Shown here: one piece after another, positions 93 through 37,757 of the stretch
Layout: every line of letters starts with the position of its first letter
Position numbering within the stretch: position 1 is the stretch's first letter
Source of the DNA: Halopseudomonas pelagia
GTDB lineage: Bacteria > Pseudomonadota > Gammaproteobacteria > Pseudomonadales > Pseudomonadaceae
Length of the DNA stretch: 64,000 nucleotides
Direction of reading: 5' to 3'
Assembly: GCF_009497895.1 (NCBI RefSeq)
Contig: NZ_CP033116.1
Coordinates: 2,666,001-2,730,000 of the forward strand
Translations under genes and position numbers: made by a program
Notes under the pieces: generated by a model
Seen by the model: only the letters and a program-made list of their open reading frames with translations
Databases searched by the model: none
What the model was told of the DNA's origin: nothing

Positions 93-183
93 GGAGGGAT
101 GGCAGAGCGGTTGAATGCACCGGTCTTGAAAACCGGCGTAGGTTAATAGCCTACCCAGGGTTCGAATCCCTGTCCCTCCGCCA
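93..183 (+). tRNA. tRNA-Ser (UGA)
   Basis: Class II tRNA with a long variable arm. The acceptor stem pairs GGAGGGA with TCCCTCC, the discriminator is G, and CCA is encoded. The anticodon loop CTTGAAA gives UGA, and the T-arm contains GGTTCGAATCC. The 3' half is the source of two further copies in the window, at 340-358 and at about 37.70 kb, which marks this gene as an integration target. Confidence 0.97.
165..183 (+). repeat. att-like core in the tRNA-Ser 3' end
   Basis: The last 19 bases of the tRNA are repeated exactly at 340-358. A 14-base part of them, followed by the terminator, recurs at 37700. Tyrosine recombinases commonly use tRNA 3' ends as att sites and one is encoded nearby, so this is probably the intact-tRNA side of an attachment site. 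The crossover point itself cannot be read from sequence. Confidence 0.7.
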
Positions 184-190
184 AATAACC

Positions 191-222
191 AAAAAGCCTC
201 AGCGAAAGCTGGGGCTTTTTTG
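191..222 (+). terminator. terminator of tRNA-Ser
   Basis: The stem GCCTCAGC / GCTGGGGC encloses a short GAAA loop and is followed by six T. A nearly identical copy lies at about 37727-37752. Confidence 0.85.
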
Positions 223-339
223 TTTATCAGATGGGTTCTCGGTGAGAACCCATGTTCGACCGGAGCAAGCAACGCTTGCGTAGGAACGCAGGAACGCAGC
301 GACTGCGGCCCCGAAGGGGTGAGGCGCGAAGCGCCGAAT

Positions 340-358
340 AATCCCTGTCCCTCCGCCA
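340..358 (+). repeat. direct repeat of the tRNA-Ser 3' end (putative att)
   Basis: Exact 19-base copy of 165-183, including the CCA, with no preceding tRNA body. It lies between the tRNA and the recombinase genes, so it may be the left end of a former or present element nested in the same site. Confidence 0.7.
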
Positions 359-410
359 CACAACGTTTAGAATCAATGACTTACGCGCGATATTGGTTCT
401 TTGCCAACAT

Positions 411-447
411 AAGCCCCAACAAACCAACATCGGTTATTGGGGCTTTT
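411..447 (+). terminator. rho-independent terminator-like hairpin
   Basis: AAGCCCCAA pairs with TTGGGGCTT across a loop of about 18 bases and is followed by a T-run. It follows the second tRNA-Ser 3' copy and precedes the end of the minus-strand recombinase unit. It could also terminate that unit on the opposite strand. Confidence 0.6.
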
Positions 448-460
448 TTGGTTCTGCGAT

Positions 461-829
461 TCAGAGAATACCTCTGCGATGCCGTGATCGGGAACGGATT
501 ACCTTGGTCGAAGATGGACGGCCACCTTTACTCGGGTCCCTCTTCAATTTCAAAGGAGGTAGCCAGTCCTTCGTCTTACCTAACGCTTCCACTAAAATGA
601 TTAGGGTGCGTTCATAGTCCACGACAGTGGCGGGGCTATACTGAGCCAAACCTTCGTTTCTGACGTGCTGCAGATGCTTTAGCCTGATTTGGTCTAGCCG
701 GTGAATCTCTGGAAATTTTTCGCTGATAATCCTACATATCGTTTTCAGGCGCCCGATGACTTTCTTGGTCGTCACTTGCGAAGACTTAGGATCAAAGCGC
801 AACCTCTGGGTAATTAAACTGATGTTCAT
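461..829 (-). CDS. small protein coupled to a tyrosine recombinase
   Basis: This is a 122-residue basic protein that I do not recognise with certainty. It looks largely alpha-helical in the first 85 residues and ends in a Lys/Arg-rich tail. The helical part resembles the SAM-like core-binding domains that precede integrase catalytic domains, but no catalytic residues are present. Its ATG overlaps the stop of the upstream recombinase by one base (TAATG), so the two are almost certainly translated together and may act together. It could be a recombination directionality or accessory factor, or a separated DNA-binding domain. The function is inferred only from position and general composition. 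Confidence 0.6.
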   Translation of the reverse strand: MNISLITQRLRFDPKSSQVTTKKVIGRLKTICRIISEKFPEIHRLDQIRLKHLQHVRNEGLAQYSPATVVDYERTLIILVEALGKTKDWLPPLKLKRDPSKGGRPSSTKVIRSRSRHRRGIL

Positions 830-1809
830 TAATACCCACCCACGTAGCCGCTGGAAACCTGTATCCTCCCATGGCCCAAAACTCGAGCCACTTCCGCTCT
901 AGCTTTTTTGTCCAGGTCTCGAGGTACATGAACACCACTCATGGGTAATACGCCGGTGATCGACTGATAGACGTCTGCTGCAAACGCGGCGCGGAGCTCA
1001 CGATAGCTGACCACCCCAAACGAACGCAGGACGCGACGGCACCGGTTCAGCTCGCGCTGGTAAAAAACCTTTACTGTTTCAGTTTTATCTAGCAGGCATC
1101 GAGACCCGATGGGGAGAGTTTGCAATGCGAACTCGATTGCCTCAAGCCGCGCAGGTGTTGATGAAACCCAACGATCGGTACTTTGTCTGCCCCCTTTGCA
1201 CCCCTGCAGAATCCAGGCGCGGCCTGTCGTGAGAATCTCATGGCGCATTCGCTGCAGATCCTGAAGGGTCGCCTCCTGAGCGCGCATCCCCCAATTCCTT
1301 GCAAGAAGAGCCACTGCCGCACCTCGACGATCCCCTTTACTCACCATTTTCGCGACCGCCTGAGTGACCGCGTGTTGATCGGCTCGCGCTGGTACCTCTC
1401 TGACATATCTCCGAGAGGTAGCCAACGCCTGAAGTGCTGAAATTTCTATCTTCGCGTTCCCACGCATCGCATACAGCGCCGTGTTCGCGGTTGAGATCAA
1501 ATTGTGCGCGTACGGCGCAGAAATCGGCTTGTCGGTAGTGCCGTCTCGCCAAACGTACTCACCCTGCAATCGACTTTTCAGGTATTCCCCATATGAGTCG
1601 AGTGTCGATTGGCTAATCAGCCGAGCTTCGACTACGCCCTGCCTCATGCAGTATCGAGCAAATATCCGCACTCGATATTGGTGAGTCCTACGGGTCCCGA
1701 AGTGGTCCTGGTCGCCGTAAAAAAGAGTCAGCGCTCGGCACATGGCGTACCGGAGCTGCCGACCGTAGCCATAATTGCGTTTATTGCAAGGTTTCTGAGG
1801 TTTTTTCAT
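829..1809 (-). CDS. tyrosine recombinase / integrase-domain protein
   Basis: 326-residue site-specific recombinase. The catalytic region is in the C-terminal half: Arg176 in GMRAQEA (box I), Arg273 in RELRAAFA (box II), and His313 and Tyr322, nine residues apart as in typical LGH...Y tails. The box II HxxR histidine is an Arg here and the residue after the Arg is Ala instead of His, so the site is atypical. The N-terminal half would be the core-binding domain. The protein ends four residues after the tyrosine. The gene sits beside tRNA-Ser and its repeated 3' ends, the classic place for an island integrase, and is coupled to the small gene after it. I place it in the 'integrase domain-containing' proteobacterial group. 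Activity is uncertain because of the changed box II. Confidence 0.85.
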   Translation of the reverse strand: MKKPQKPCNKRNYGYGRQLRYAMCRALTLFYGDQDHFGTRRTHQYRVRIFARYCMRQGVVEARLISQSTLDSYGEYLKSRLQGEYVWRDGTTDKPISAPYAHNLISTANTALYAMRGNAKIEISALQALATSRRYVREVPARADQHAVTQAVAKMVSKGDRRGAAVALLARNWGMRAQEATLQDLQRMRHEILTTGRAWILQGCKGGRQSTDRWVSSTPARLEAIEFALQTLPIGSRCLLDKTETVKVFYQRELNRCRRVLRSFGVVSYRELRAAFAADVYQSITGVLPMSGVHVPRDLDKKARAEVARVLGHGRIQVSSGYVGGY

Positions 1810-2959
1810 ATCCGTTTACCTGTATGTGTAATTGATACAGCGCTGCGTGGCGGCCTCTCCGGTTGGGATAAAGGCTACGCCACGCACGTGTCCCTGCTGC
1901 CCCTAACCGGAGTTAGATTAAACATAGAGAGAAGTCCCTCTTGCGGGTGGACACGTCGTGTGCAGCTGTGAGCACGGTTGAAATCTGCTGCGCCGTGAAC
2001 CGGTATCTGAATCGAAACCGGGGGGCAAAGGCTTGCGCTTTATCATTGCGCCGATGCAGCAGATCTGGGTGCCTGATCTGGCTGGCTGTAATTTGGCTAA
2101 ACGATTCCGGCATGCTGAGCTGAAAACCCAGTGGAAGTCCGGCCGGGGCAGTTTTGTCCGAGTTTTGTCCGGTAGTGGTTCGGAACTTTTGTGCAAGCTA
2201 CTGATTTTAGTGTTTTTTATCTTTTTCATTGGTTGCATCTCTTAAACGTGCGCGCAATTTAAAAAAATCCGCTGCGTTGTCCAATCACACGCTGCGGAGG
2301 TAGTTAACTTGGCCATTCAGGCCGTTGGGATGCTGCGACTTTCGGCGTCCAGCTCACCCTCGATTCAGGAGTTCCCTCGGATCAATATCGAGGGGGTAAG
2401 GGAGGAATTCGGGCCCACGACGGGGCCACGCTGCAGCCCTCTTTGAGCGCTGCAGCAGTTGGATAGACTCTGCGTTGATGCAGAGCAATTCGGTGAAGGT
2501 GGCCCGGGAGGCCATTACATGCTGCTGCTTAACGAGCCCAGCTCGCTCGTCAGACACGATCGCCTGAAGACGGAGTAATTTTCACAGCGAATTGGGATGG
2601 CGAGCGTTGGGTAAATGCGGTATTTCGCGATTTAGTCAGGGATGCTGTGAATTTCTGCCTTTTTTCGGCAGGTTCAGATCTCGACAGGTGATACGCTCCC
2701 ATTCTGCGAGATTCTATTCATAGCATCAGAACTAAAAATAGCGAATACCATGGTTTCCGATTGTGCAGATCTAGTGCGCGATGGACGAAACAGCTAAGTG
2801 CCAGCAATTGTCAGCTACCGAAGAGATATCGGTACCAATACTACTAAATAACGAACCCCACCCTGCCAAGGAGGCATACCCGGGGTGCCTCTGTTGTAAT
2901 TAGTATCGTTACAAGACTTGGCTCGCGAGGGGTCAGGCAACGTGCAGAGGATAACAATC
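1810..2959. other. long stretch without a recognisable gene
   Basis: About 1.15 kb between the recombinase and exaC. Open frames exist on both strands (for example 1918-2238 minus and 2033-2245 plus) but none has recognisable domains, a good ribosome-binding site or a neighbour to support it, and they overlap one another. It looks like eroded island sequence, ending in the exaC promoter region. Confidence 0.6.
2834..2849 (+). promoter_or_regulatory. putative PQQ-regulon motif upstream of exaC
   Basis: ACCAATACTACTAAAT, about 110 bases before the exaC start. It is a looser member of a CCAA-containing motif seen before several units of the locus (4671, 25063, 28965, 33856/33878, 35388). The regulator is unknown; the LuxR-type regulators encoded in the locus are candidates. 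Confidence 0.35.
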
Positions 2960-4480
2960 ATGATTTATGCAAATCCCGGAGCTCAGGGCTCTGTCGTGTC
3001 TTTCAAGGAGCGTTACGGTAACTTCATCAATGGTGAATTCGTCGCGCCGGTCAAGGGGCAGTATTTCACCAACCTGTCGCCGGTAACGGGTGGGGCCATC
3101 TGTGAGATTCCCCGCTCTACCGCCGAGGATATCGACAAGGCGCTGGATGCTGCCCACGCTGCCAAGGCTGCCTGGGGCAAGACGTCGGTTCAGGCCCGCG
3201 GCAACATCCTGCTGCAGATTGCCGACCGCATCGAACAGAATCTTGAAAAGCTGGCCGTTACCGAAAGCTGGGATAACGGCAAGGCCGTGCGTGAAACCCT
3301 GAATGCGGATATCCCGCTCGCCGCCGACCATTTCCGTTATTTCGCTGGCTGTATTCGTGCCCAGGAAGGGACCCTGGCAGAAATCGACGAACACACCACC
3401 GCCTATCATTTCCATGAACCCCTGGGCGTGGTCGGCCAGATCATTCCATGGAACTTCCCGCTGCTGATGGCGGCCTGGAAGCTCGCGCCGGCGCTGGCGG
3501 CGGGTAACTGCGTCGTTCTCAAACCGGCAGAGCAGACGCCGCTGGGCATCCTGGTCCTGATGGAAATCATCGGTGACCTGTTGCCACCGGGCGTTCTCAA
3601 CGTGGTCAACGGTTACGGCCGTGAAGCTGGCGAAGCACTGGCCACCAGCAAGCGCATCGCAAAGATTGCCTTCACCGGCTCCACACCGGTTGGCAGGCAC
3701 ATCATGCACGCTGCTGCCGAAAATATAATTCCTTGTACTGTCGAGCTCGGTGGCAAGTCTCCGAACATATTCTTTGCCGACATCATGCAGGCCGAAGAGA
3801 CCTTTATCAGCAAGGCGGTCGAAGGTCTGGTCCTGGCGTTCTTCAATCAGGGCGAAGTCTGCACCTGTCCGTCACGGGCGCTAATCCAGGAATCCATGTA
3901 CGAAGACTTCATTGCCCTGGCGATCAAGCGCACTCAGAGCATCAAGCGTGGCAATCCCCTCGACACGGAGACCATGGTCGGTGCTCAGGCATCCGAGCAG
4001 CAGTTCGACAAGATCCTCTCCTACATGGAGATCGCCCGCCAGGAAGGTGCCGAATTCCTGATCGGCGGCAGTGCTGAAAAACTCCACGACAGCATCAATA
4101 ACGGTTATTACATCCAGCCGACCCTTCTCAAGGGTCACAACAAGATGCGCATTTTCCAGGAAGAGATATTTGGGCCTGTAGTCAGCGTCACGACCTTCAA
4201 GGACGAAGCCGAAGCTCTGGCGATTGCCAACGACAGCGAATTTGGTCTCGGTGCAGGGCTCTGGACACGGGATACTAATCGTGCGTATCGGATGGGCCGC
4301 GCCATTCAGGCAGGTCGAGTATGGACCAACTGCTACCACCTGTATCCCGCCCACGCGGCCTTCGGTGGCTACAAACAGTCAGGTGTAGGGCGTGAGAATC
4401 ACAAGATGATGCTCGACAGCTATCAGCAGACCAAGAATCTGCTGGTCAGCTATGACGCGAATCCGCTGGGTTTTTTCTAG
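2960..4480 (+). CDS. exaC: NAD-dependent aldehyde dehydrogenase ExaC
   Basis: Oxidises acetaldehyde and other aldehydes produced by the quinoprotein alcohol dehydrogenases, in the cytoplasm. The protein has 506 residues, the usual ExaC length, beginning MIYANPG. An open frame extends upstream to 2918, but AGAGGA lies just before the ATG at 2960 and family members start there. Catalytic Cys301 is in [12 protein letters not shown] and the general-base Glu262 is in VELGGKSP; the cofactor motif FTGSTPVG is present. It lies ahead of the pqq genes, as in P. aeruginosa PA1984, but about 290 bases separate it from pqqA, including a terminator, so it is probably its own unit. The closest alternatives are other AldB-type dehydrogenases. 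Confidence 0.95.
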
Positions 4481-4766: not shown

Positions 4767-4838
4767 ATGTGGACTAAACCGAGCTTTACCGATCTGCGTA
4801 TCGGCTTTGAAGTCACCATGTACTTTGCCAGCCGTTGA
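4767..4838 (+). CDS. pqqA: PQQ precursor peptide PqqA
   Basis: 23-residue ribosomally made peptide: [14 protein letters not shown], then EVTMYFASR. It carries the conserved Glu and Tyr, three residues apart, that PqqE joins and that become the PQQ skeleton. Too short for routine gene finders. AAGAGGATCG upstream provides a ribosome-binding site. It is first in the pqqABCDE operon, and the hairpin directly after it probably sets its excess over the downstream enzymes. Confidence 0.95.
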
Positions 4839-4846
4839 GCAGTCGG

Positions 4847-4907: not shown

Positions 4908-5819
4908 ATGCATATTCAGATACTCGGTTCGGCAGCTGGCGGCGGTTTTCCGCAATGGAACTGCAACTGCAGCAACTGCGACGGAGTGCGCAAGGGCACC
5001 TTGAACGCCAAGCCGCGCACCCAGTCTTCCATCGCACTGTCCGATGACGGCGTCAACTGGATACTCTGCAATGCCTCGCCGGACATACGCGCGCAGCTAG
5101 AGAATACCCCGACGCTGCAGCCTGCACGTTCCGTGCGCGACACCGCCATTGGTGCCATTGTGCTCATGGACAGTCAGATTGACCATGTCACCGGCCTGTT
5201 GACTCTGCGCGAAGGGTGTCCGCACCAAGTTTGGTGTACCGATATGGTGTACGAAGACCTCAGCAGCGGATTTCCGTTATTCAAGATGCTTGAACATTGG
5301 AATGGCGGACTGCGCTGGAACCCAATTCCGCTTGCAGCAGAATTTACCATTCCGGTTTGTCCCGCTCTGCGCTTTACCGCCATCGCCCTACGCAGCGCAG
5401 CGCCACCCTATTCCCCGCATCGCAACAATCCACACCCAGGCGACAACATCGGACTGCTGGTGCGCGATCTGAATACAGGCGGGGTGCTGTTTTACGCGCC
5501 GGGTTTGGGGCAGCCGGATGCCCAAGTCAAATCAGTGATGGCTGACGCCCACTGCCTGCTGGTGGATGGCACCTTGTGGCGCGATGACGAGATGGCCTAC
5601 GCCGGGGTAGGCGACAAGCTCGGTAGCGAGATGGGGCATCTGCAGCAGAGCGGCACGGACGGGATGATCGCGTTACTGGATGGGCAAGCTGCGGTACGCA
5701 AGATCCTGATCCACATCAACAATACCAACCCCATCCTGGATGAGGATTCGACCGAACGGGCCGAACTTGCCCGGCACGGGATTGAAGTCGCCTTTGACGG
5801 CATGCACATTACGCTTTGA
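4908..5819 (+). CDS. pqqB: PQQ biosynthesis protein PqqB
   Basis: 303-residue cytoplasmic metallo-beta-lactamase-fold protein. Family members are iron-dependent hydroxylases that act on the tyrosine of the excised Glu-Tyr dipeptide during PQQ formation. The N-terminus [19 protein letters not shown] and the following Cys-rich CNCSNC are typical, and the length is normal for PqqB. It is second in the operon, 69 bases after pqqA with the hairpin between them, and is followed 10 bases later by pqqC if the TTG start is used. Confidence 0.95.
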
Positions 5820-5829
5820 GGAGTCTGTC

Positions 5830-6582
5830 TTGCAGCCCGAACCAATGAATGCTGATGCTTTCGAGCAGGCCCTGCGGGCCAAGGGAGCTTACTATCATAT
5901 TCATCATCCCTACCATGTTGCCATGTACAGCGGCACGGCCAGTCGCGAGCAGATCCAGGGCTGGGTCGCCAATCGCTTCTACTACCAGATCAAGATTCCG
6001 CTGAAGGACGCGGCGATCATGGCCAACTGCAACGACCCGGCCACCCGCCGCGAATGGATACAGCGGATTATCGATCATGATGGTGAGAGGCAAGGGGAGG
6101 GCGGTATCGAAGCCTGGTTGCGGCTGGGCGAGGCGGTAGGGCTGGACCGCGAGGTGCTGCTGTCGCAGGAAAAGGTATTGCCGGGCGTGCGCTTCGCTGT
6201 GGATGCCTATGTCAATTTTGCCCGTCGGGCGAGCTGGCAGGAAGCCGCCAGTTCCTCGTTGACCGAGCTGTTTGCCCCGCAGATTCACCAATCACGCCTC
6301 GATAGCTGGCCAGCACACTATCCGTGGATCGATAGTCGCGGCTACGAGTATTTCCGCAAGCGAATGAGTGAGGCACGGCGTGATGTAGAGCATGGTTTGC
6401 GCATTACTCTCAGCCACTACCAGACCTATGATGCCCAGCAGCGCATGCTCAATATCCTGCAGTTCAAGCTCGATATCCTCTGGAGCATGCTGGATGCCAT
6501 GAGTATGGCCTACGAATTGGACCGCGCGCCTTACCACACCGTTACCGCCCAGGCCGTCTGGCATCGGGGGGTAGATCTGTGA
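5830..6582 (+). CDS. pqqC: pyrroloquinoline-quinone synthase PqqC
   Basis: Cofactor-less oxidase catalysing the last step of PQQ synthesis (ring closure and eight-electron oxidation). Helical-bundle family; the motifs GAYYHIHHP and NRFYYQ...[12 protein letters not shown] are well conserved. Two starts are possible: TTG at 5830, six bases after GAGGAG, gives 250 residues as in other pseudomonads; ATG at 5845 gives 245 but has no ribosome-binding site at a good distance. I prefer the TTG. The stop overlaps the GTG start of pqqD. Confidence 0.93.
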
Positions 6583-6857
6583 TCGACTTTCAGAGGCATC
6601 AAGTGCCGATACTGCGTCCCGGGTTCCGGTTGCAGTGGGAGCCGATCCAGAATAGTCACGTTCTGCTGTATCCCGAGGGTATGGTCAAGCTGAATGAAAG
6701 TGCTGCCCAGGTATTGCTGCTGATCGATGGCGAGCGACCAATTGACGACATCATCGACAGCCTGGCTGGTCGGTTTCCAAATGTACCCGGGCTGGATGAA
6801 GACATCCTCGCCTTTATCGAGGTGGCCAATGCTCAACACTGGATCAACATCCGCTGA
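6579..6857 (+). CDS. pqqD: PqqA-binding chaperone PqqD
   Basis: 92-residue winged-helix RiPP recognition protein that binds PqqA and presents it to PqqE. It contains the usual [18 protein letters not shown] and [12 protein letters not shown] segments. It starts at a GTG overlapping the pqqC stop by four bases (GTGA), and its 3' end overlaps pqqE by 29 bases, so the three are translationally coupled. Confidence 0.95.
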
Positions 6858-7989
6858 CAGCACTCTGGTTGCGAACCAAGGCCCACCATTGTGGCTTCTG
6901 GCCGAGCTGACCTATCGCTGTCCATTGCAATGCCCCTACTGTTCCAACCCGCTGGAGTTCGCCAATCACAAGGATGAACTGACTACCGCACAGTGGATCG
7001 ATGTATTCACTCAGGCACGAGCGCTGGGGGCGGCGCAGCTGGGATTTTCAGGCGGCGAACCCTTGGTACGTGACGATCTGGTGGAGTTAATCGAAGCGGC
7101 GCGCGAGCTGGGGTTCTATACCAATCTGATTACATCGGGCATGGGGCTAACCGAGCAAAAGGTCAATGCGTTCAAGCAAGCGGGGCTCGATCATATCCAG
7201 ATCAGCTTCCAGGCGTCCGACGCAGAGATAAACAACATGCTCGCGGGTTCGCGCAAGGCATTCGACCAGAAGCTGGCAATGGCCCGTGCCGTAAAAGCGG
7301 CGGGATACCCGATGGTGTTGAACTTTGTCACGCACCGGCACAATATTGATGAGATAGAAAAGATCATCGAACTCTGCCTGGCGCTGGAAGCTGACTTTGT
7401 CGAGCTGGCTACCTGTCAGTACTACGGATGGGCACACCTGAACCGGGCTGGCCTGCTGCCAACCAAGGCGCAACTGGACCATGCTGAAGCCGTAACGCAG
7501 CGCTACCGCCTCAAGCTCGCTGCCGAAAATCATCCGTGCAAACTGATTCTGGTGACCCCCGACTACTACGAAGAGCGTCCCAAAGGGTGTATGAATGGCT
7601 GGGGCAATATCTTTCTTAGTATTACTCCTGATGGCACAGCGTTACCTTGCCACAGCGCGCGGCAATTGCCAGTGACCTTCCCGAACGTCACCGCACATAG
7701 CCTGTCGCACATCTGGTACGACTCATTTGGCTTCAACCGTTTTCGCGGTTACGAGTGGATGAGCGAACCCTGCCGCTCCTGTGATGAAAAGGAAAAGGAT
7801 TTTGGCGGCTGCAGGTGCCAGGCGTATATGCTTACCGGAGACGCGACCCAGGCTGACCCGGTATGTAGCAAATCGCCACACCACGACAAGATTCTGGCCG
7901 CCCGTGCCGAGGCAGACCTACCTCAGCCCCCGATAGAGGCATTGACGTTTCGGAATGAACGCAACTCGCGAATCATCTGCAAAAGCTGA
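6829..7989 (+). CDS. pqqE: PqqA peptide cyclase PqqE (radical SAM)
   Basis: 386-residue radical S-adenosylmethionine enzyme that forms the carbon-carbon bond between the Glu and Tyr of PqqA. The radical-SAM cluster motif is C31-x3-C35-x2-C38 (CPLQCPYC). The C-terminal SPASM-type cysteines are visible in [24 protein letters not shown] and the last CSKSP. The frame is open further upstream (to 6727), but ATG 6829 gives the family length and places the cluster motif normally. It overlaps pqqD at its start and pqqH at its end. Confidence 0.96.
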
Positions 7990-10934: not shown

Positions 10935-10964
10935 GAGTATGTCCTTGACGAGTGCTGGTGAGCT

Positions 10965-16251: not shown

Positions 16252-16363
16252 GGCGCGGCCTACTGCTTTGGTGCAGCTCACTTGCTACTTTAGTGGTGTG
16301 GGCGGATACAGGCTTGTCCTGCAGCGTTAATCTGGTAGCCCATAGACTGTCTACGAGTTCCCC

Positions 16364-24929: not shown

Positions 24930-25062
24930 GGCCAGTTTCAACCTGTTGTTGTATTTATAGGGTTTGCTGCAGGATGCACGCTGTTGCTATGTGTATCACT
25001 ACTGAAGCATTACATCCCGAGTAGCCCACAATTCAAATGATACATTGGCACAGTAAAGCGGT

Positions 25063-25078
25063 ACTAAAGTAGTAAATC
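25063..25078 (+). promoter_or_regulatory. putative PQQ-regulon motif upstream of erbR
   Basis: ACTAAAGTAGTAAATC preceded by CGGT, closely like CGGT-ACCAAGGTAGTATTTC at 28965. It lies in the gap between the ABC permease end and the erbR start, on the strand opposite to erbR transcription. It suggests autoregulation if it is an ErbR-family site. Confidence 0.4.
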
Positions 25079-25093
25079 CGTGCTCGGCCTGCA

Positions 25094-27653: not shown

Positions 27654-27702
27654 GGGCACTCCTGTTTTTTTCTTTTTCGGATGTTCGGTAAGCGGGCCCA
27701 TA

Positions 27703-28980: not shown

Positions 28981-29041
28981 GAGGTTTTATTGAAGCCTTA
29001 GGATGGTTTGTGATGTTTTGAACCAATTAAGGAATACGCCA

Positions 29042-30334
29042 ATGCGCTCCATTTCGACTGCGACACGCCTGACTATGTGGGTGTGCATGGCCTTCATTCT
29101 GGTATTGCTAGTGACCATGGGCGTTATGCTCAAACAGGCGGAAAAAGATGTTATACGGGAGCTGCAAGGCGGACGGGCCATGGCCCTGAGCCTGCTCGAA
29201 AGCATGGCTCAGAGGCCGCTCTCGCCATCTGCGAAGATGCTGGATGAGGTGCGCCATGTGCGTATCTCACGGGTTGGCGACCTGGCCACAACCGGCGTGC
29301 CGGAACACCGCACCAGCGCCGTACCGGCATGGCTGCTGGGCTGGATGCAGCCCGCGATAGACCAGTCCTTTGCACCTGTATCTTTGAGCTTTGCCGATGG
29401 CCAGCAATGGCTGATCAGTCCGGATCCGGTGGATGAACTTGAGGAGGTATGGGAGTCGGTACTGCTTCTATTGGGCGTATTCAGCACGGCCCTGGTGTTG
29501 TCATTGCTGGCTATCCATCTCTCATTACACCGCGGCCTTAAGGCCTATCGGCAGCTGCTTGACGCATTGCAACTGATCGGAGTAGGCGATTTACAGGCAC
29601 GCCTAGCGCCGAGCAGCCAAGCCGAGCTGAATCAGTTGGCTGACCGCTTCAACCTCATGGCGGTGGCGTTGCAGCGGGCAGATGCGAAGAATCAGCAATT
29701 GACCCGTGCGCTGATGACGCTGCAGGAGAAAGAGCGCATGCACCTCGCGCATGCGCTGCACGACGATCTGGGCCAATACCTTACCGGTATCCGTGCCCAA
29801 GCCTACATGTTGGGTGAGGCGGCTAGCAGGCCCGATCTGGTGCGCCAGCATGCCGAGCACCTTTTGCAGGCATGCAGTGGCTTGCAGCGAGGCTTCCGTG
29901 CACTGGTGCGGGATCTGCATCCGGTGGTGCTGGATCGACTCGGGCTCGAGCAGGCTGTGCGGCAACTAGCAGGGCAATGGCAGGAACAACAGGGTATCCA
30001 GTGTGTACTCGAGCTTGATGAGTCGTTGCCCCGCCTCGGAACCGAACAGCGCACCCATTTGTATCGGCTGTTGCAGGAAGCCTTGACCAATGTCGCCCGG
30101 CATGCAAAAGCCAGTTCCGTCTGGGTGCGGCTGGTGCATGAGGACGAAGTACTTCAAGTCAGTGTGCAGGATGATGGCCACGGCTTGAGAAACCCTGATC
30201 AATCCTGTGGAGTGGGCATGCGCTCCATGCAGGAGCGCGCTCGCTGCTTGCAGAGCGCGCTGCAAGTGACCTCCAGCCCGGGCATGGGTGTGTTGGTGTC
30301 CCTGGCCATTCCGCTGAAGGTGCTTGCCGCATGA
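29042..30334 (+). CDS. membrane sensor histidine kinase (NarX/HisKA_3 type)
   Basis: 430 residues: TM1 (about 10-30), a periplasmic loop of about 110 residues, TM2 (about 148-168), HAMP (to about 225), HisKA_3 dimerisation domain with phospho-acceptor His in HALHDDLGQYLTGI, and HATPase (NVARHAKASSV, DDGHGL, GVGMRSMQERA). Its stop overlaps the response-regulator start by four bases. It is a candidate sensor of alcohols or lanthanides for the adjacent dehydrogenases, comparable in position to PedS/EraS, but the sensory loop gives no direct clue. Confidence 0.9.
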   Translation: MRSISTATRLTMWVCMAFILVLLVTMGVMLKQAEKDVIRELQGGRAMALSLLESMAQRPLSPSAKMLDEVRHVRISRVGDLATTGVPEHRTSAVPAWLLGWMQPAIDQSFAPVSLSFADGQQWLISPDPVDELEEVWESVLLLLGVFSTALVLSLLAIHLSLHRGLKAYRQLLDALQLIGVGDLQARLAPSSQAELNQLADRFNLMAVALQRADAKNQQLTRALMTLQEKERMHLAHALHDDLGQYLTGIRAQAYMLGEAASRPDLVRQHAEHLLQACSGLQRGFRALVRDLHPVVLDRLGLEQAVRQLAGQWQEQQGIQCVLELDESLPRLGTEQRTHLYRLLQEALTNVARHAKASSVWVRLVHEDEVLQVSVQDDGHGLRNPDQSCGVGMRSMQERARCLQSALQVTSSPGMGVLVSLAIPLKVLAA

Positions 30335-30972
30335 ATATTCTGCTGGTCGATGACCACGCCATCGTTCGGCAAGGTTATACCGGCCTGCTGGAAATGACGT
30401 TTACCCAGGCCCATATCCGCGAGGCTACCAGCGGCGAAGAAGCCATCAGTGCTGCGCAGCAACAGGTGCCTGATCTGGTGGTGCTGGACATCGGGCTGCC
30501 GGGCATCAGCGGTGTCGAAACCGCCCGGCGGTTGCTGCTGCGCTGGCCCTCCATGCGCATTCTGTTTTTCAGCATGCACGATGAGCTGCCGTTGGTACGT
30601 CAGGCGCTGGCAACGGGTGCGCTCGGGTACATTACAAAAGGTGCAGCTCCGGATGTATTACTTGAGGCGGTACGGCGCTGCCTGGGCGGACAGCGCTATA
30701 TCGAACAGGACCTCGCTACCCAGCTGGCCTGTGCCGGTACCGATGGCACGCTCGATCCGAGGCTGAAATGCATGACTCAGCGCGAGTTTGAGATATTTGT
30801 CATGCTCGCCAAGGGCACGCCACCCCGGCGCATCGCCAGCCAGCTGTGCATTAGCAGCAAGACGGTGTCGAACAATCTGACGGTGCTCAAGCAGAAACTG
30901 AATGTCAGCTCTCTCACGGAACTGGTACACCTGGCCATCGATACCGGAGTCATTCGGGTGCAGGTGGCTTGA
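30331..30972 (+). CDS. LuxR-type response regulator (ExaE/EraR-like)
   Basis: 213 residues: receiver with DDH acidic pocket and phospho-Asp in VVLDIGLPG, and LuxR helix-turn-helix at about 145-205 (TPPRRIASQLCISSKTVSNN). It is translationally coupled to the kinase. In P. aeruginosa the corresponding EraSR (ExaDE) pair turns on exaA. It is convergent with the pentapeptide gene. Confidence 0.9.
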   Translation: MNILLVDDHAIVRQGYTGLLEMTFTQAHIREATSGEEAISAAQQQVPDLVVLDIGLPGISGVETARRLLLRWPSMRILFFSMHDELPLVRQALATGALGYITKGAAPDVLLEAVRRCLGGQRYIEQDLATQLACAGTDGTLDPRLKCMTQREFEIFVMLAKGTPPRRIASQLCISSKTVSNNLTVLKQKLNVSSLTELVHLAIDTGVIRVQVA

Positions 30973-30987: not shown

Positions 30988-31659
30988 TCACTTTTCCCAG
31001 TCAACCGGGCAGGCAGTGCAGTTGCGCATGTGCATGTTGAGAAAGGTGCCGTAGTGCAGCCGGGCGCCACTCATGTCGGCAGACTCCAGGTTGGCGTGGT
31101 TCATTTTCGACTCCTGCAGGTTGGCATCGCGCAGGTTTGCGCCTTTCAGGTCTGCCTTGGGTAACCAGGCCATTTCCAGGTTGGCAGCCCGCAAAATGGT
31201 GCCATGCATGCTAGCACCACTGAAACGGGCGAATTCCAGGTTGGCCCCGGTAAAATCCGCATCCTTGAATTGTCCTCCCTGGGCGGTCAGATTCCAGGCC
31301 TGAGAACCGACAAAACTGCTACCGATGGCGCTGACACCGCGCATCGCAGTTTGCTGCAGGCTCGCGCGGTTGAGATTGGCGCCGTCCAGTTTGGCGCTGT
31401 CCAGCCTGGCCTGATCGAGCTGCGCGTGGCGAAGGTCGGCACCACGTAGATCGGCACCGGTGAAGTCGGCCTTGCGCAGATCCATATTACGCAGATCGGC
31501 GTTGCGCAGATCAACGCCCGCACATTGTGTGCCGGGCATCAGTGCGCAGCCATTGAGGGTAACGATGTCCTGCTCGGCGAGATCAGCGGTTTGTGCCGCC
31601 AGCGGCAGCCCGGCGCTGATGCCGACAAGCAGTAAGCTTCTGGTAAGAAAGGATTTCAT
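30988..31659 (-). CDS. exported pentapeptide-repeat protein
   Basis: 223 residues. A signal peptide (to LAAQTADLA) is followed by about 30 A(D/N)Lxx pentapeptide repeats (residues about 50-205) that should form a right-handed quadrilateral helix. It has two cysteines before the repeats (CALMPGTQC) and two at the C-terminus (CTACPVDW), suitable for disulfides. Similar genes occur beside quinoprotein alcohol dehydrogenases in pseudomonads. It lies downstream of, and on the same strand as, the calcium-type dehydrogenase, with a 66-base gap, so it may be co-transcribed. The function is unknown. Confidence 0.85.
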   Translation of the reverse strand: MKSFLTRSLLLVGISAGLPLAAQTADLAEQDIVTLNGCALMPGTQCAGVDLRNADLRNMDLRKADFTGADLRGADLRHAQLDQARLDSAKLDGANLNRASLQQTAMRGVSAIGSSFVGSQAWNLTAQGGQFKDADFTGANLEFARFSGASMHGTILRAANLEMAWLPKADLKGANLRDANLQESKMNHANLESADMSGARLHYGTFLNMHMRNCTACPVDWEK

Positions 31660-31725
31660 TGTTCAGCTCCGATGGCAACGCCCGGTCCTGCCGGGCGCGC
31701 CTTAAGGGATAAAGACGTTAATGGT

Positions 31726-33597
31726 TCAACGCTTGGCGCTGCTGGTATCCCAGCTAGGTAGTTTGAACACCCAGAACGAGCCGCCCTGAGCAACAGGCTT
31801 GGTCAGCTCGGCCATCTCGCCGCCCCAGAGTGGAACCGCGCCGCCGTAACCGGTGGTGACACCGATATACTGCTCGCCGTCCATTTCCCAGGTGATCGGG
31901 GGCGAAATGATTCCGGTGCCGGTCTGGAACTTCCAGACTTCCTTGCCGGTTTTGGCGTCAAAGGCCTTGAAGTAACCGTCACCCGTTCCGGTGAACACCA
32001 GGTTGCCTGCGGTCGCCAGCACGCCGGCCCAGAGCGGCAAAGGCTCCTTGTGCTCCCACTCGACCTTACCGGTAGTGGGGTTCATGGCGCGCAGGATGCC
32101 GACATGGTCATCAAACATGCGCTTGATCCGAAAGCCCATGCCCAGGTAGGCCGAGCCCTTGTTGTAACTGACCTCTTCGGTCCAGTAGTCCTCTTTCCAG
32201 TGGTTGGCCGGCACATAGAACAGGCCGGTATCCTGGCTGTAGGCCATGGGGTTCCAGTTCTTGCCGCCAAGGAAGGGCGGTGAGACTTCGACGGCTTCGC
32301 TACGTTCCTGGCCGGGTTCCAGCCGAGCCGGGCGCTGCCCCTTGTTTTCCACTGGGCGGCCGGTCTTCAAATCAATATGACTTGCCCAGGTAATGTTGTC
32401 GACGAAGGGGAAGGCGTTAGCCAGTTTGCCGTTGTTGCGATCCACGACATAAAAGAAGCCGTTACGATCAGCGTGAGCAGTGGCTTTGAGTGTCTTGCCG
32501 GCCTTGTCCTTGTAATCGAACAGCACCAGTTCGTTGTTGCCGGAGAAATCCCAGGCATCGTTGGGCGTGTGCTGGTAGAACCACTTGACCTCGCCCGTGG
32601 TGGCATCAACGCCCACCTGGCCCGAGGTATACAGGCTGTCGTAGTCGGCAGGTTTGCCGTCCTTGCCGGTGCGCGCCCAGCCGTTCCAGGGCGCCGGGTT
32701 CCCAGCGCCAATGATGATGGTGTTGGTCTCAACATCAAAGCTGGCGCTCTGCCAGGGAGCTCCGCCGCCCTGGCTCCAGGCCTCGACCTTGCCGGTAGGT
32801 GAATTCGGATCATCCGGCCAGGAAGGCGCCTTGACGTCACCGGTGGGCGTGCTGTCCTTGCCATTCAGGCGCCCCATATGCCCTTCAACGAACGGCCGCA
32901 TCCAGATTTCCTTGCCAGTCTCCGGATCGCGGGCGAAGAGCTTGCCCACTACGCCGAATTCGTCGCCGGAGGAACCATGGATAAGCATGACCTTGCCGGA
33001 TTTTTGATCTTTAACGATGGTCGGGGCGCCCGTCATGGTGTAACCGGCCTGGTGGTCACCGAATTTTTCACGCCACACTACCTTGCCAGTGTCCTTGTTC
33101 AGCGCGACCACGCCCGCATCCAGGGTGCCAAAGAACACATTGTCGCCATAGATCGCGGCGCCGCGGTTAACGACGTCGCAGCAGGGCCGGATGTCATCGG
33201 GCAGACGGTGAGCATAACTCCACAGGCGTGCGCCGGTCTTAGCGTCTAGGGCAAATATCCGCGAGTAGGAGCCGGTCACATAGATCACGCCGTCATGAAT
33301 GATCGCTTGGGACTCCTGTCCGCGCTGCTTTTCATCGCCAAACGAATAGGACCATGCTGGCGTCAGCTTGTAGATGTTGTCGCTATTGACCTGGTTCAGC
33401 GGGCTCCAGCGCTGGGCGTTGGTGCCCATGCCGTATTGCAAGACGTTATGCGTGGAGGTGTGATCGTTTGCGATATCGTCCCAGGTAACCGGCTTGGCCG
33501 TAGCATGGGGCGCGGCCAGGGCAATACTGGCGGCCATCGCCAGGCACTTGACCGCCTGGGCGAGGGGGTTTGGAGCAGGAAGCGTTCTTGTTCTCAT
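31726..33597 (-). CDS. exaA: PQQ-dependent alcohol dehydrogenase, calcium type (ExaA/PedE)
   Basis: 623 residues, the ExaA length; an eight-bladed propeller quinoprotein, periplasmic. ATG 33597 follows AAGGAAA; the signal peptide ends PHATA. The vicinal cysteines in RPCCDVVNR form the disulfide next to PQQ. The catalytic Asp350 is followed by Phe-Ser (WDFSG); the second position after the Asp is not acidic, which is the calcium-type arrangement. It oxidises primary alcohols and passes electrons to the cytochrome c encoded divergently. Its tail (LPSWDTSSAKR) is normal. Alternative names are QedH or PedE. Confidence 0.95.
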   Translation of the reverse strand: MRTRTLPAPNPLAQAVKCLAMAASIALAAPHATAKPVTWDDIANDHTSTHNVLQYGMGTNAQRWSPLNQVNSDNIYKLTPAWSYSFGDEKQRGQESQAIIHDGVIYVTGSYSRIFALDAKTGARLWSYAHRLPDDIRPCCDVVNRGAAIYGDNVFFGTLDAGVVALNKDTGKVVWREKFGDHQAGYTMTGAPTIVKDQKSGKVMLIHGSSGDEFGVVGKLFARDPETGKEIWMRPFVEGHMGRLNGKDSTPTGDVKAPSWPDDPNSPTGKVEAWSQGGGAPWQSASFDVETNTIIIGAGNPAPWNGWARTGKDGKPADYDSLYTSGQVGVDATTGEVKWFYQHTPNDAWDFSGNNELVLFDYKDKAGKTLKATAHADRNGFFYVVDRNNGKLANAFPFVDNITWASHIDLKTGRPVENKGQRPARLEPGQERSEAVEVSPPFLGGKNWNPMAYSQDTGLFYVPANHWKEDYWTEEVSYNKGSAYLGMGFRIKRMFDDHVGILRAMNPTTGKVEWEHKEPLPLWAGVLATAGNLVFTGTGDGYFKAFDAKTGKEVWKFQTGTGIISPPITWEMDGEQYIGVTTGYGGAVPLWGGEMAELTKPVAQGGSFWVFKLPSWDTSSAKR

Positions 33598-33974
33598 GGC
33601 AGTGTTTCCTTGTTGTTGGAAGAGGGCAGCAATGCTGGTCCACGTCGCCATATTGGTCAGTCGCTGATGCACGTGATACGGAAAATGCCCCGGTCTTTGC
33701 GGGAAATATGCCCTGCCCGCTAGCGTTTGGGACGCCCTCAACAGGAGCGCTACCTTGGGCGGAGGAAATCACTGCTTTCGGTCATTTCACTGCATAGAAC
33801 TTGTTCTGAACCGCCAATGCGGAGGTGCGGGCGCAGGTCGGCTGAAATACCTACGACCAAGGAACTAAATTGCGGCCACCAAAGCAGCATTGGGGTTAGG
33901 TCTGCGCCTTCCTACCATGGATCTCGGATATTCAAATAATGATCCGTGCTGGACACGGCCAAGAGGTGAGCCCT
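33598..33974. promoter_or_regulatory. divergent promoter region of exaA and the cytochrome c gene
   Basis: 377 bases with no gene. It holds two copies of the locus motif: ACCAAGGAACTAAATT at 33856-33871 and ACCAAAGCAGCATT at 33878-33891, 22 bases apart. Open frames crossing it are upstream extensions of exaA. Confidence 0.5.
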
Positions 33975-34409
33975 ATGAGGTATTTCAAGCAGGCACTGAA
34001 GATAAGCGCTTTGGGACTATTGCTGGCGACAGGCCAGGCGTTGGCCCACGGCAATGTCACGCCCCAGTCGGTGGATACCAAGGACCTGGAAAAGTTGGGT
34101 GACGAATGGCTCGAGACCAACCCCTATCGCGATCATCCACAGCATGATCTGGCGGTGAAAATCGGCGCCTCTGCCTACAACCAGAACTGCGCCGCTTGTC
34201 ATGGGCTGGAGGCCATTTCGGGCGGTATGACACCAGACTTGCGCGAGCTGGAGGTCGGCGAATTCGGTGATGAATGGTATAAGGAACGAGTCGTCAATGG
34301 CGCGGTGCGAGATGGGCGGGTGTATATGCCACGCATGGGCGACGTCCTCAGCCAGGAGGCATTGTGGGCCATCCGTACCTGGCTGGAAACTGTCGCAGTC
34401 GAGCAATAA
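33975..34409 (+). CDS. exaB: periplasmic cytochrome c (ExaB/PedF)
   Basis: 144 residues with a signal peptide ending QALAHG, one heme motif CAACH at about residue 75, and a distal Met in the YMPRMGD segment. It is the size of cytochrome c550 (ExaB), the electron acceptor of the quinoprotein dehydrogenases. ATG 33975 follows AGAGGTGAGCC. It is followed after three bases by the binding-protein gene. A cytochrome of this class would hand electrons to a terminal oxidase. Confidence 0.93.
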   Translation: MRYFKQALKISALGLLLATGQALAHGNVTPQSVDTKDLEKLGDEWLETNPYRDHPQHDLAVKIGASAYNQNCAACHGLEAISGGMTPDLRELEVGEFGDEWYKERVVNGAVRDGRVYMPRMGDVLSQEALWAIRTWLETVAVEQ

Positions 34410-34412
34410 AGC

Positions 34413-35309
34413 ATGCTCAGCCTGCGCGTTATCGGGTTGTGCTGCTGCTTGTTGCTGGCGATGCCGGTGCAGGCGTTCAACATTACCCATATCCGCGACC
34501 ATGATGAAATCATCGAGTCGGGGTACCTTAAGGTGGCGGTCTACGAAGACTATCCCCCCTACAGCTTCATGCAGGATGGCCAGCCCAGAGGCGTCGACGT
34601 CGAGCTGGCCAAAGCGCTGGCGGCAGAGCTGGGTGTGGAGCTGAGGCTGCAATGGATGACGCCTGATGAAAACTTCGACGGCGACCTGCGCAATCACCTG
34701 TGGAAAGGCCACTATTTGCGCCCAGGCCAGATCGCCGATGTCATGTTGCGTGCGCCCAACGATAAAGCGTACAGCAACATGCGTGACGATTTGGGGCTGC
34801 CCGCGCACGAATTGATTCACATGTTCGGCGCTTACCAGCAGGAGCGCTGGCAAGCCGCCTATGACCCGCGACAGATAGACGCGGTGCCCAGCATTGCGAT
34901 CTTTCAATACCACCCGGTCGGCGTTGAGGAAGACTCCATTCCCGCGTTCTACTTGGCCAGCGTCATGAACGGCCAGTTGAGCAAGATGACTCGCCACTAT
35001 CGCAACCTTGGCCAGGCCTTTGCCGCGATGGAGACCGGTGAAGTGCATGCCGTCATGGGTACCCAGGCCGAGATTGACTGGCTGCTAGCCGAGCATGCCG
35101 ATGCCGGTATGCAACTGACCGAAAACGCCTACCCTAATATGGGCAAACAGGTCTGGGATCTGGGCATGGCCGTGCACGACTCCAACCGGCAACTGGCCTA
35201 CGCGCTGGGTGATATAGCCGAAGCAATGGTGCTGGACGGGCGCATGGCCGCACTCTATGCAGACTATGGTTTGCGTTACATGCTGCCGAGCTACTACACC
35301 GACATCTGA
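34413..35309 (+). CDS. quinoprotein-associated periplasmic binding protein (XoxJ/MxaJ-like)
   Basis: 298 residues with a signal peptide ending PVQAFN and an SBP_bac_3 fold (opening LKVAVYEDYPPYSFMQDGQPRGVDVELAKAL). No ABC permease of this type follows, so it is not a simple transporter part. Related proteins (MxaJ, XoxJ) sit next to quinoprotein dehydrogenases and are thought to help assemble or activate the apoenzyme. It is placed between the cytochrome and the lanthanide-type enzyme, whose activation it may serve. Confidence 0.88.
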   Translation: MLSLRVIGLCCCLLLAMPVQAFNITHIRDHDEIIESGYLKVAVYEDYPPYSFMQDGQPRGVDVELAKALAAELGVELRLQWMTPDENFDGDLRNHLWKGHYLRPGQIADVMLRAPNDKAYSNMRDDLGLPAHELIHMFGAYQQERWQAAYDPRQIDAVPSIAIFQYHPVGVEEDSIPAFYLASVMNGQLSKMTRHYRNLGQAFAAMETGEVHAVMGTQAEIDWLLAEHADAGMQLTENAYPNMGKQVWDLGMAVHDSNRQLAYALGDIAEAMVLDGRMAALYADYGLRYMLPSYYTDI

Positions 35310-35325
35310 TACCGTTTCATGTTTG

Positions 35326-35366
35326 CCGGTTTGCACGATGCCTACTGTGCAAACCGGATTTTTTTT
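35326..35366 (+). terminator. terminator after the binding-protein gene
   Basis: CCGGTTTGCAC / GTGCAAACCGG stem with a loop of about ten bases, followed by ATT and a T-run. It separates the cytochrome/binding-protein unit from the next dehydrogenase. Confidence 0.85.
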
Positions 35367-35387
35367 GCCCGGCATCAGGGTATTGCT

Positions 35388-35406
35388 ACCAAGTGATGAG
35401 CTAAAT
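35388..35406 (+). promoter_or_regulatory. putative PQQ-regulon motif upstream of the lanthanide-type dehydrogenase
   Basis: ACCAAGTGATGAGCTAAAT, about 120-140 bases before the start codon. It is a weaker and longer match to the shared motif, which would fit separate regulation of this gene. Confidence 0.3.
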
Positions 35407-35527
35407 AACCCCTGGGTTGGATTGTTGCTCTGGTCTCAGCGGCGAAGAATCAATGCCTGAGGCGGGAAAATTTCCCGGTTCTTCGCTGACTCGACCAACA
35501 CAACAATACATCTCTGAGGTAGCAGCA

Positions 35528-37300
35528 ATGACACACCGCTCACCCTTCGTCCTGACCGCGCTGGTAGCCGCCATGAGTTTTTCCGGTTTGGCTGTCGCCG
35601 GCGTCACCTATGACGACATCAACAATGACGCGACCACCACCGACTCCATCGTCTCCTACGGCATGGGAACCCAGGGCCAGCGCTACAGCCCATTGACCAT
35701 GGTCAACGACACCAACGTCGATCAGTTGCAGCCCGCATGGGCGTTCTCGCTAGGTGGTGAAAAACAGCGTGGCCAGCAAGCACAGCCGATGATCAAGGAT
35801 GGCGTGATGTATATCACCGGTTCCTACTCACGGGTTTTTGCGGTCGACGCTCGCACTGGCAAGAAGCTCTGGCAATACGATGCGCGCCTGCCGGACGGCA
35901 TCATGCCCTGTTGTGACGTAATCAATCGCGGTGTGGCGCTGATCGATGATCTGGTGATTTTCGGCACCCTCGATGCAAAGCTCGTGGCTCTGCACAAAGA
36001 CACCGGGAAAGTGGTCTGGCGCAAGACAGTGGCCGACTACAAGGCCGGATATGCCATTACTGCCGCACCCTTGATCGTTAATGGTAAGTTGATTACCGGC
36101 GTCTCCGGCGGTGAGTTTGGTGTGGTTGGCAAGATTGAAGCCTACGACCCAACCAACGGCGAACTGCTCTGGACACGCCCGACTATTGAAGGCCACATGG
36201 GCTATACCTACAAGGACGGTAAAGCCATCGAAGCGGGTATTTCCGGTGGCGAAGCCAATAAGACCTGGCCAGGTGACCTGTGGAAAACCGGTGGTGGCGC
36301 ACCTTGGCTGGGTGGCTTTTACGACCCGGAGACCAACCTGCTGCTGTTCGGTACCGGCAACCCCGCGCCCTGGAACTCGCACATGCGCAAGGGCGACAAC
36401 CTCTACAGCTCGTCACGCCTGGCACTCAACCCCGATGACGGCACGATCACATGGCACTTCCAGACCACCCCGAACGATGGCTGGGACTACGACGGTGTAA
36501 ACGAGTTGGTGTCCTTCAACTATAAGGAAGGTAATAAGGAAATCAAAGCCGCCGCGACCGCTGACCGCAACGGCTTTTTCTATGTACTGGACCGCACCAA
36601 CGGCAAGTTCATCCGTGGCTTCCCGTTTGTAGACACCATCACCTGGGCCAAGGGGCTGGACACGAACGGCCGGCCTATATACAGCGAGGATCACCGCCCG
36701 GGCGCGCCAACCGAATCCGGGGACCAGGGGAAAACGGTTTACGCCGCGCCTGCCTTCCTGGGAGGCAAGAACTGGCAGCCCATGGCTTACAGTCAGGATA
36801 CCGGCCTGTTCTACGTGCCTTCCAACGAATGGGGTATGGATATCTGGAACGAAAGCACGGCGTACAAGAAAGGCGCGGCCTACCTGGGCGCAGGCTTCAC
36901 CATCAAACCCATCCACGACGACTACATTGGCGTACTCAGGGCCATGGACCCCAAAACCGGCAAGGAAGTCTGGCGCGTGAAAAATCCGGCGCCACTCTGG
37001 GGCGGTGTACTGAGCACCAAAGGCAACCTGGTCTTTACCGGCAACCCGGAAGGTTACCTGATGGCCTTCAATGCCAGGAATGGCGAGAAGCTGTGGGAGT
37101 TCAACACTGGTTCAGGCGTGATTGGTAATCCGGTTACCTGGGATATGGATGGCGAACAGTACGTATCTGTGCTGTCTGGCTGGGGCGGGGCGGTACCCTT
37201 GTGGGGCGGCCAAGTTGCCGAGATCGTCAAGGACTTCAACCAGGGCGGTATGCTCTGGACATTTAAAATACCGAAACCCACTCCGGTAGCCAATCGTTGA
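35528..37300 (+). CDS. pedH: PQQ-dependent alcohol dehydrogenase, lanthanide type (PedH-like)
   Basis: 590 residues, periplasmic eight-bladed quinoprotein with a signal peptide ending LAVAGV. ATG 35528 is chosen because the signal peptide begins there; the frame is open to 35417. The vicinal cysteines MPCCDVINR are present. The catalytic Asp320 is followed by Tyr-Asp322 (WDYDG). The extra Asp two residues on is the known mark of lanthanide-binding enzymes such as XoxF and PedH, and differs from the Ser in the neighbouring exaA. It is a single-gene unit with terminators on both sides. Substrate range is not readable from sequence, but PedH enzymes oxidise many alcohols and aldehydes. Confidence 0.93.
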
Positions 37301-37326
37301 TCTGATGGATTGACCAGCAAGAGAGG

Positions 37327-37350
37327 AAGGGCCTGCTAGCAGGCCCTTTT
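37327..37350 (+). terminator. terminator after pedH
   Basis: AAGGGCCTGCTAGCAGGCCCTTTT: a perfect GGGCCTGC / GCAGGCCC palindrome with T-run, 27 bases after the stop. Confidence 0.85.
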
Positions 37351-37699
37351 CATTCCATAAAAACAATGAAAGCCCTCTAATGGAAATCTTCTTTATAGAT
37401 CCGCGTTAAATGCTCGTTTTCGAATACTATAGAGCTACACGCTATAGTGCTGACTCGGGAGGGGGGTGATAATGTATTTACTGCAAATATTCGGCAGCTG
37501 CCGGCCAATGGTTGAGACACGTTCTGCTGGGGCGCAGGGTTGGTAACGGATTGCTGCTATTTAAACTCTTCAGAAGGTGCGACTAATCTGTCGACATGTT
37601 CGCACACGTCAAAAAGGTGCTTTAACTATATGATATAGCTAGATTATTCTAAGTCTATATCTGTCTCATGCTGTCTATTTGGATACTGATAATGGCGGA

Positions 37700-37757
37700 C
37701 TGTCCCTCCGCCAAATAAACAAAAAAGCCTCAGCGAAAGCTGGGGCTTTTTTCGTTT
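37700..37757 (+). repeat. copy of the tRNA-Ser 3' end plus terminator (putative distal att)
   Basis: About 57 bases almost identical to 170-225: CTGTCCCTCCGCCA, then an A-rich spacer and the same GCCTCAGC hairpin with T-run. Differences are one substitution and an inserted A in the A-rich spacer, plus a C after the T-run. No tRNA 5' part is present. With 93-225 it brackets 37.5 kb containing the recombinase and the whole PQQ locus, so it may be the far junction of an island. Confidence 0.7.

Follow-up and report, generated by a model that had tools for sequence, protein, structure and literature searches.

A probable integrative genomic island carrying a PQQ-biosynthesis and alcohol-dehydrogenase locus at a tRNA-Ser site in Halopseudomonas

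The subject of this study is a pyrroloquinoline quinone (PQQ) biosynthesis and alcohol-oxidation locus beside a tRNA-Ser gene in a 64,000-nucleotide stretch (hereafter the window; bases 2,666,001-2,730,000) of the single-contig, 4.55-Mb genome of Halopseudomonas pelagia (G000), a locus that is very probably the cargo of an integrative genomic island. A published parallel is GI-5 of Alteromonas australica H17, described in the cited passages of PMC4119200 as a 35-kb island next to a tRNA that carries a PQQ-dependent methanol/ethanol dehydrogenase and pqqABCDEF and shows a repeat of the tRNA 3' end; since such an island has been published, the kind of element considered here is already known. 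GI-5 differs in its target, tRNA-Leu, and in its 52-nt repeat (the two are likened by description, not by sequence), and those passages make no mention of a copy in another species, an RtT copy or loss at a native site. The Pseudomonas transfer-messenger RNA (tmRNA) islands I23, I44 and I55, as presented in the cited parts of PMC12595487, likewise have a tyrosine integrase and a 14-bp direct repeat at the end of an RNA gene and are without recognised autonomous-transfer genes, but they differ in their tmRNA target, the AlpA gene at the 3' end and their defence cargo. No tmRNA was found in the window by ARAGORN, the target here being tRNA-Ser, and no AlpA was present among the scan matches listed, small open reading frames (ORFs) having been left out and the right end of the window's copy being shortened. 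Tycheposons, described in the cited portion of PMC10872708 as cargo elements 4-200 kb long that are bordered by a tRNA and have a tyrosine recombinase, share both features with the present element, a likeness of description and not of recombinase kinship. The insect-associated PQQ region of Burkholderia unites PQQ genes and a PQQ-alcohol dehydrogenase in one block and bears signs of interspecies transfer, but its authors found no mobility elements, integrases or flanking repeats (PMC9088363, cited section). PQQ clusters are called widespread in Pseudomonadaceae in a paper on marine members of the family (PMC10165715, cited section), and a review of the ped genes notes that several strains lack the cluster and that some genes may have been transferred horizontally, with the words 'genomic island', 'mobile' and 'Halopseudomonas' absent from the main text as available (PMC12997753). 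Among the matches listed in the open-licence literature, no title described a Halopseudomonas PQQ island; the new findings here are a near-identical copy of the island in another species and an RtT-like target.

We estimate at about 0.9 the probability that positions 345-37,699 of the window form a 37,355-bp integrative genomic island with a PQQ-biosynthesis and PQQ-alcohol-dehydrogenase locus as cargo, inserted by an integrase either into the tRNA-Ser 3' end or into its RtT-like copy. Sequence comparison supports this reading through the boundaries of the element, an empty site, a near-identical island elsewhere at a different tRNA-end copy and a remnant in a third species. The intact host gene for tRNA-Ser(TGA) lies at 93-183 on the plus strand (ARAGORN, Rfam), has matches in all 58 genomes searched (57 relatives plus G000), and is followed by what its sequence suggests is the host terminator (184-225, plus strand; a similar one occurs in G023, the sister species and closest relative of G000). 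As the first-pass annotation had noticed, the tRNA 3' end with its terminator (170-225) recurs at 37,700-37,757 with 95% identity, and an E value of 1.5e-17 over the whole genome means that the repeat is not due to chance; the 19-base copy of the tRNA 3' end reported at 340-358 and the tyrosine recombinase reported inside the left end (829-1809, minus strand; Pfam Integrase_1) are also present. The 14-base core CTGTCCCTCCGCCA occurs exactly at three plus-strand sites in the window, namely 170-183, 345-358 and 37,700-37,713, and sequence comparison identifies the last two as the left and right attachment cores (attL and attR). In G023, the order is tRNA-Ser, terminator, ~120 bp, a second tRNA-end copy, a second terminator and the genes found beyond 37,829 in the window, and the match to the right flank (37,700-50,293, 93% identity) starts exactly at the core; therefore, the element lies between the cores at 345-358 and 37,700-37,713. 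The idea that the locus is bracketed by tRNA-Ser ends is thus correct as to the repeats, but the left boundary is the 345-358 copy and not the tRNA gene, and the join is found at these two cores and not, as had been expected, between 225 and 37,758. The combination by which Islander recognises tRNA-targeted integrative genomic islands (PMC4383910, cited part), a tRNA gene and a same-orientation downstream 3' fragment 2-200 kb apart with a tyrosine integrase between them, was found here, and G023 supplies a precise empty site in a relative, a test added to that definition. Base composition, which had been suggested as a further check, sets apart the left integrase module (52.5% G+C) and the right tail (43.5%) from the left and right flanks (57.2% and 55.6%) but is uninformative for the cargo (58.1%), which it would have missed.

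The left boundary coincides with the end of a unit at 216-358 (plus strand; Rfam RF00391, 35.3 bits) that closes with the 19-base tRNA-Ser 3' end copy (340-358) and whose end served as the chromosomal target (attB). The last bases of the RF00391 model are a tRNA 3' end, which aligns with the tRNA-Ser end here. Like RtT RNA, the unit stands behind a tRNA and ends in the 3' end of that tRNA; unlike it, the unit has a sub-threshold score and stands behind tRNA-Ser, not tyrT, and it is called RtT-like and not a proven member of the family. Beyond the right core, the terminator at 37,714-37,757 (plus strand), placed by its sequence and the empty site of G023 as the host terminator 3' of the RtT-like unit, is host DNA outside the right boundary, which accounts for the length of the repeat that the first-pass annotation had flagged as needing explanation. 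Judging from G023, the second copy of tRNA end and terminator is a host property and not a product of the island. A history of successive integrations and partial excisions, also raised at first, is not needed, and successive integrations were rejected as the source of the 340-358 copy because G023 carries both that copy and the second terminator without the island. Just inside attL, next to the tRNA end, the element bears a terminator-like hairpin with a T-run of its own (411-449, plus strand), probably a replacement terminator; a similar hairpin is present at the left element ends in G032 and G013. Elsewhere in G000, two tandem stretches 80-81% like the RtT-like unit, 170 bp apart, stand behind tRNA-Ser(CGA), and in them the tRNA-end copy is limited to its first ten bases; in this region (G000:C1 1605796-1606296), they are followed by an inverted piece of the tRNA 3' end.

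Another copy of the island was found in G030, a metagenome-assembled genome labelled Halopseudomonas xinjiangensis, where it is spread over contigs C2, C5 and C12. C5 matches window positions 633-37,497 with 99.73% identity over 36,865 columns (of the 100 differing columns, 32 fall before position 34,000 and 23 after 37,000). On C2, tRNA-Ser is joined directly to window 340-625 at 100% identity, the left core being the tRNA gene itself, and the contig is unbroken from the G030 flank across the core into the island. C12 contains window 37,618-37,719 at 95% identity, the core, the terminator and RtT-like copy belonging to G030 and, farther on, the gacA region. The island is therefore read as having been inserted twice, separately, at the tRNA gene in G030 and at the RtT-like copy in G000, and the use of two different tRNA-end copies suggests that ~19 shared bases suffice as attB. 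The RtT-like copy of G030 has one base missing and one change, defects that may be the reason why it was not used as the target. The empty site in G023 and the island at another tRNA-end copy in G030 bear out the mobile-island reading of the first-pass annotation. It might be argued that the recent movement was due to homologous recombination of flanking DNA between species rather than to an integrase, given that transfer by transformation or transduction with recombination in the flanks is common in general; however, outside the tRNA gene, the flanks of G000 and G030 have diverged close to both cores (72-82% identity, in pieces, upstream of the island and 73% over 7.8 kb in the gacA region), and the island adjoins different tRNA-end copies in the two genomes, making this explanation highly improbable.

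The tRNA-Ser flank was retrieved for 19 relatives (20 regions, two of them from G023), extending at most ~17 kb downstream per genome except in G023 and short where contigs end in G010, G013, G017, G027 and G030, and pqq cargo directly after tRNA-Ser was found only in G025, plus G030 by joining C2 and C5. This result counts against the view that the pqq locus is ancestral at this place, was lost by G023 and others, and is flanked by repeats that are only host RtT-like repeats. The RtT-like copy in G023, present without an island, and the occurrence of pqqE in 21 of the 37 genomes used for genus-wide gene counts (E 1e-60) agree with such a history, but the G023 chromosome match restarts exactly at the att core and the same DNA adjoins the other tRNA-end copy in G030 at an identity far above core identity, and we give ancestry at this site very little credence. 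The insertion of an island is also consistent with G025, where window 340-5,829 matches at 95.0% over 5,499 bp and is followed by the core and then by host DNA similar to the empty sites in G010 and G013. This 5.5-kb remnant is cut after pqqB at a CTGTC match, either via the integrase or via microhomology; it is unlikely to be an ancestral small element because it stops just after pqqB at that match. In G021, G024 and G016, the DNA right after tRNA-Ser is like the left end of this element type (an AATCAAT plus CTTA motif and a hairpin), which suggests more distant elements at the same tRNA-Ser site.

Recombination was probably carried out by the 326-aa Integrase_1 recombinase (829-1809; Pfam and alignment) with a 122-aa partner, encoded at 461-829 on the minus strand by an ORF that overlaps the integrase gene. 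The partner, for which no Pfam match was found, is a predicted stand-alone core-binding-like domain (AlphaFold2 model and structure matches; mean predicted local distance difference test score 70.8). Residues R176, K205, R273, H313 and Y322, which we take to be catalytic, are invariant in all five aligned integrases. Relatives with at least 70% identity to the 326-aa integrase occur in 5/37 genus genomes (six copies, G000 included), and the 326/122-aa pair stands beside the left core in all six (G000, G030, G025, G032 and, twice, G013), with the 71-83% identical relatives at tRNA-Ser(TGA) in G025 and G032 and at tRNA-Ser(CGA) and (GGA) in G013. The G032 element, 35.2 kb long at tRNA-Ser(TGA) and with the same core at both bounds, shares with G013 a 1,707-aa helicase-like protein and a GajA/GajB (Gabija) pair, which was identified by PADLOC on G032 proteins and paired with G013 proteins by length and first residues. 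In the right cores of G000, G030 and G032, CTGTCCC stands between an inner arm, GGCGGA, and an outer arm, TCCGCC, that mirror each other, and tRNA-end homology in the right-hand copy begins exactly at the first C of CTGTCCC; we infer a 7-bp overlap, CTGTCCC, within which tyrosine recombination would take place at the tRNA-Ser 3' end or at the RtT-like copy of that end.

A second integrase, presumably of the P4 type, stands beside the right core in G030 and G032 (Pfam in G030: Phage_int_M, Arm-DNA-bind_3 and Phage_integrase), and a helix-turn-helix (HTH) protein is common to G030, G032 and G013. Given these genes in relatives, the A+T-rich right tail of the window's copy (37,350-37,699), of which G030 matches the parts up to 37,497 and from 37,618 onwards, appears to be a shortened backbone. 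P4-type matches at E 1e-80 were found in 8/37 genomes, with none in G000 or G025. G000 also has a probable second island of ~23 kb at tRNA-Ser(GGA) (G000:C1 1463467-1487023), in which a P4-type integrase, 38% identical to the right-end one, adjoins the displaced tRNA end. It is conceivable, though rather unlikely, that the right-end enzyme, absent from the window's copy, is the real integrase, the 326-aa protein then being a passenger or serving some other function: the former adjoins the right core in G030 and G032, its 38% relative lies beside the displaced tRNA end at tRNA-Ser(GGA), and G000 has no second match to the 326-aa protein at E 1e-20. However, the 326/122-aa pair accompanies the left core in every one of the six copies, and G000 and G025 have the pair but no P4-type match at E 1e-80. 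Elsewhere than at its tRNA-Ser site, G025 has on contig C49 a 111-residue fragment, 51% like the 326-aa integrase, which adjoins a stretch matching the 122-aa protein at 35%. The 326-aa integrase matched 26 plasmid records, all below 60% identity, had no relative in viral contigs, and had a single match among phage records, at 25.5%. Five viral contigs contain an exact 20-base attR-like pattern, but comparing these contigs with the 326-aa, 122-aa, P4-type and HTH proteins gave no match at E 1e-6, and the pattern there was attributed to chance or unrelated elements. The carriage of I55 by a jumbo phage (PMC12595487, cited part) offers a model for the transfer route, which we guess could involve a helper phage. 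As a tentative proposal, RtT-like repeats behind tRNAs may act as spare att sites, such that tRNA-entering islands can use the 19-base copy and spare the tRNA gene and its terminator, while the recombinase may consist of two proteins, one a full recombinase and the other a separate core-binding protein; in combination, such sites and such a recombinase could let a lineage that had lost its native pqq locus regain it as one portable block.

In G011, a pqq locus on the chromosome is colinear with the 34-kb cargo (~2,842-37,350) at 80-87% DNA identity; it lacks the Sel1 gene, and its PqqF is only 62% identical. No tRNA was found within the 60 kb read around the G011 locus, and the G011 genome has no match to the 326-aa integrase at E 1e-20. 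At the native pqq position in G000 and G023, the segment is missing and only the exaC-like gene is kept, ~83% identical to the island copy. In a pqqE tree (21 genomes, built from tblastn alignments), the G000 and G030 proteins are identical and sister to G011 (100/99), while a tree of the 223-aa protein encoded beside tRNA-Ser in 19 genomes, a single short marker, groups G000 with G023 and G011 (100/99) and leaves G030 outside. We presume this tRNA-adjacent protein to be YccA-like. These patterns suggest that the G000/G011 clade was the source of the cargo, captured from a pqq locus on its chromosome. The simplest history would be that the locus was lost from its native place and later regained with the island; gain of the pqq locus in G011 is a possible alternative. 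Five pqqE matches have one in-frame stop each, TGA in G002, G006, G034 and G033 and TAA in G026. A whole regulated PQQ and alcohol-oxidation pathway appears to travel as a single block between distantly related Halopseudomonas species (~27% difference in the core DNA compared), so the presence or absence of the trait can be a matter of island traffic; G000 itself shows both absence of the locus from its native place and its presence on an island. The use of the RtT-like copy as a target also gives a testable role to a known but obscure repeat.

Several observations weigh against the interpretation as an integrase-driven island. The evidence consists of sequence comparison, excision or transfer of the island not having been observed. 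G030 is a metagenome assembly with the island on three contigs, the link between C2 and C5 consists of abutting ends (window 625 and 633), and we take the last ~19 bases of C2 to be a sequencing adapter; misbinning of C5 is not fully excluded. At the right end in G030, identity is only 95% across 102 bp, and this end is separated from the cargo by other backbone DNA. RtT scores fall below the Rfam gathering score of 45 in all three genomes in which the unit was seen (35.3 bits in G000, 34.6 in G023 and 37.2 in G030), and the Rfam search found no RtT match at E 0.01 in the relatives G029 and G027. The model of the 122-aa protein is of moderate confidence, its best plain Foldseek match having an E value of 0.7 and none reaching E 0.001. 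Finally, the G011 contig ends ~250 bp past the exaC-like gene, and an element there is not fully excluded.

The island's contents were classified by scanning 27 ORFs (10 by Pfam and 17 by NCBIfam, with 3 of the 27 additionally by Pfam; small ORFs left out). Among the Pfam matches listed for these ORFs and in NCBIfam lists of up to 25 matches, there was no conjugation machinery or relaxase of the sort expected of an integrative and conjugative element and no structural or packaging gene of a prophage or phage satellite. A plasmid search using 24,656 bases of the 37,355-bp island returned 12 records; in the best 10 of the 12, coverage is 5-6% and falls at the aldehyde dehydrogenase gene, and a record in the 90-95% identity band is not one of those 10. 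Leftmost in the cargo, on the plus strand, are that aldehyde dehydrogenase gene (2918-4480; Pfam Aldedh), which we take to be exaC, and a 23-aa peptide gene (4767-4838; from its translation), presumably pqqA. These are followed at 4908-9859 (plus strand; Pfam) by pqqB, pqqC, a pqqD-like frame (~6,579-6,857; from its translation), pqqE and an S9 peptidase, names that are partly our own attribution. Genes for a Sel1-repeat protein and an FMN-binding/Fe-S protein (9891-13,118, minus strand; Pfam) precede a plus-strand block (13,347-24,258; Pfam/NCBIfam) that encodes an Fe-alcohol dehydrogenase, a hybrid kinase, a PqqF-like M16 peptidase (272.8 bits, cut-off 320), an unknown 414-aa protein, NosP and a NahK/ErcS'-like kinase (1452 bits, cut-off 1500). 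The minus-strand stretch 24,267-28,884 (NCBIfam) contains a response regulator gene with ErdR as its nearest match (184 bits, cut-off 390), together with PQQ-associated ABC/propeller genes (TIGR03861, TIGR03864, TIGR03866 and TIGR03863, all above cut-off). The remainder, also assigned by NCBIfam, comprises a sensor kinase and response regulator (29,003-30,972, plus strand), a pentapeptide-repeat protein and PQQ alcohol dehydrogenase 1 (30,988-33,741, minus strand), and cytochrome c-550 PedF, a substrate-binding-like protein and PQQ alcohol dehydrogenase 2 (33,939-37,300, plus strand). Beyond the island, the window contains a tRNA-Gly 3' end with terminator (50,402-50,472) that is repeated 132 bp downstream (50,534-50,604) with 97% identity; the Rfam search gave no RtT match in 50,402-50,604, and, together with a further partial copy at 50,482-50,506, the arrangement looks like a decayed tandem duplicate.

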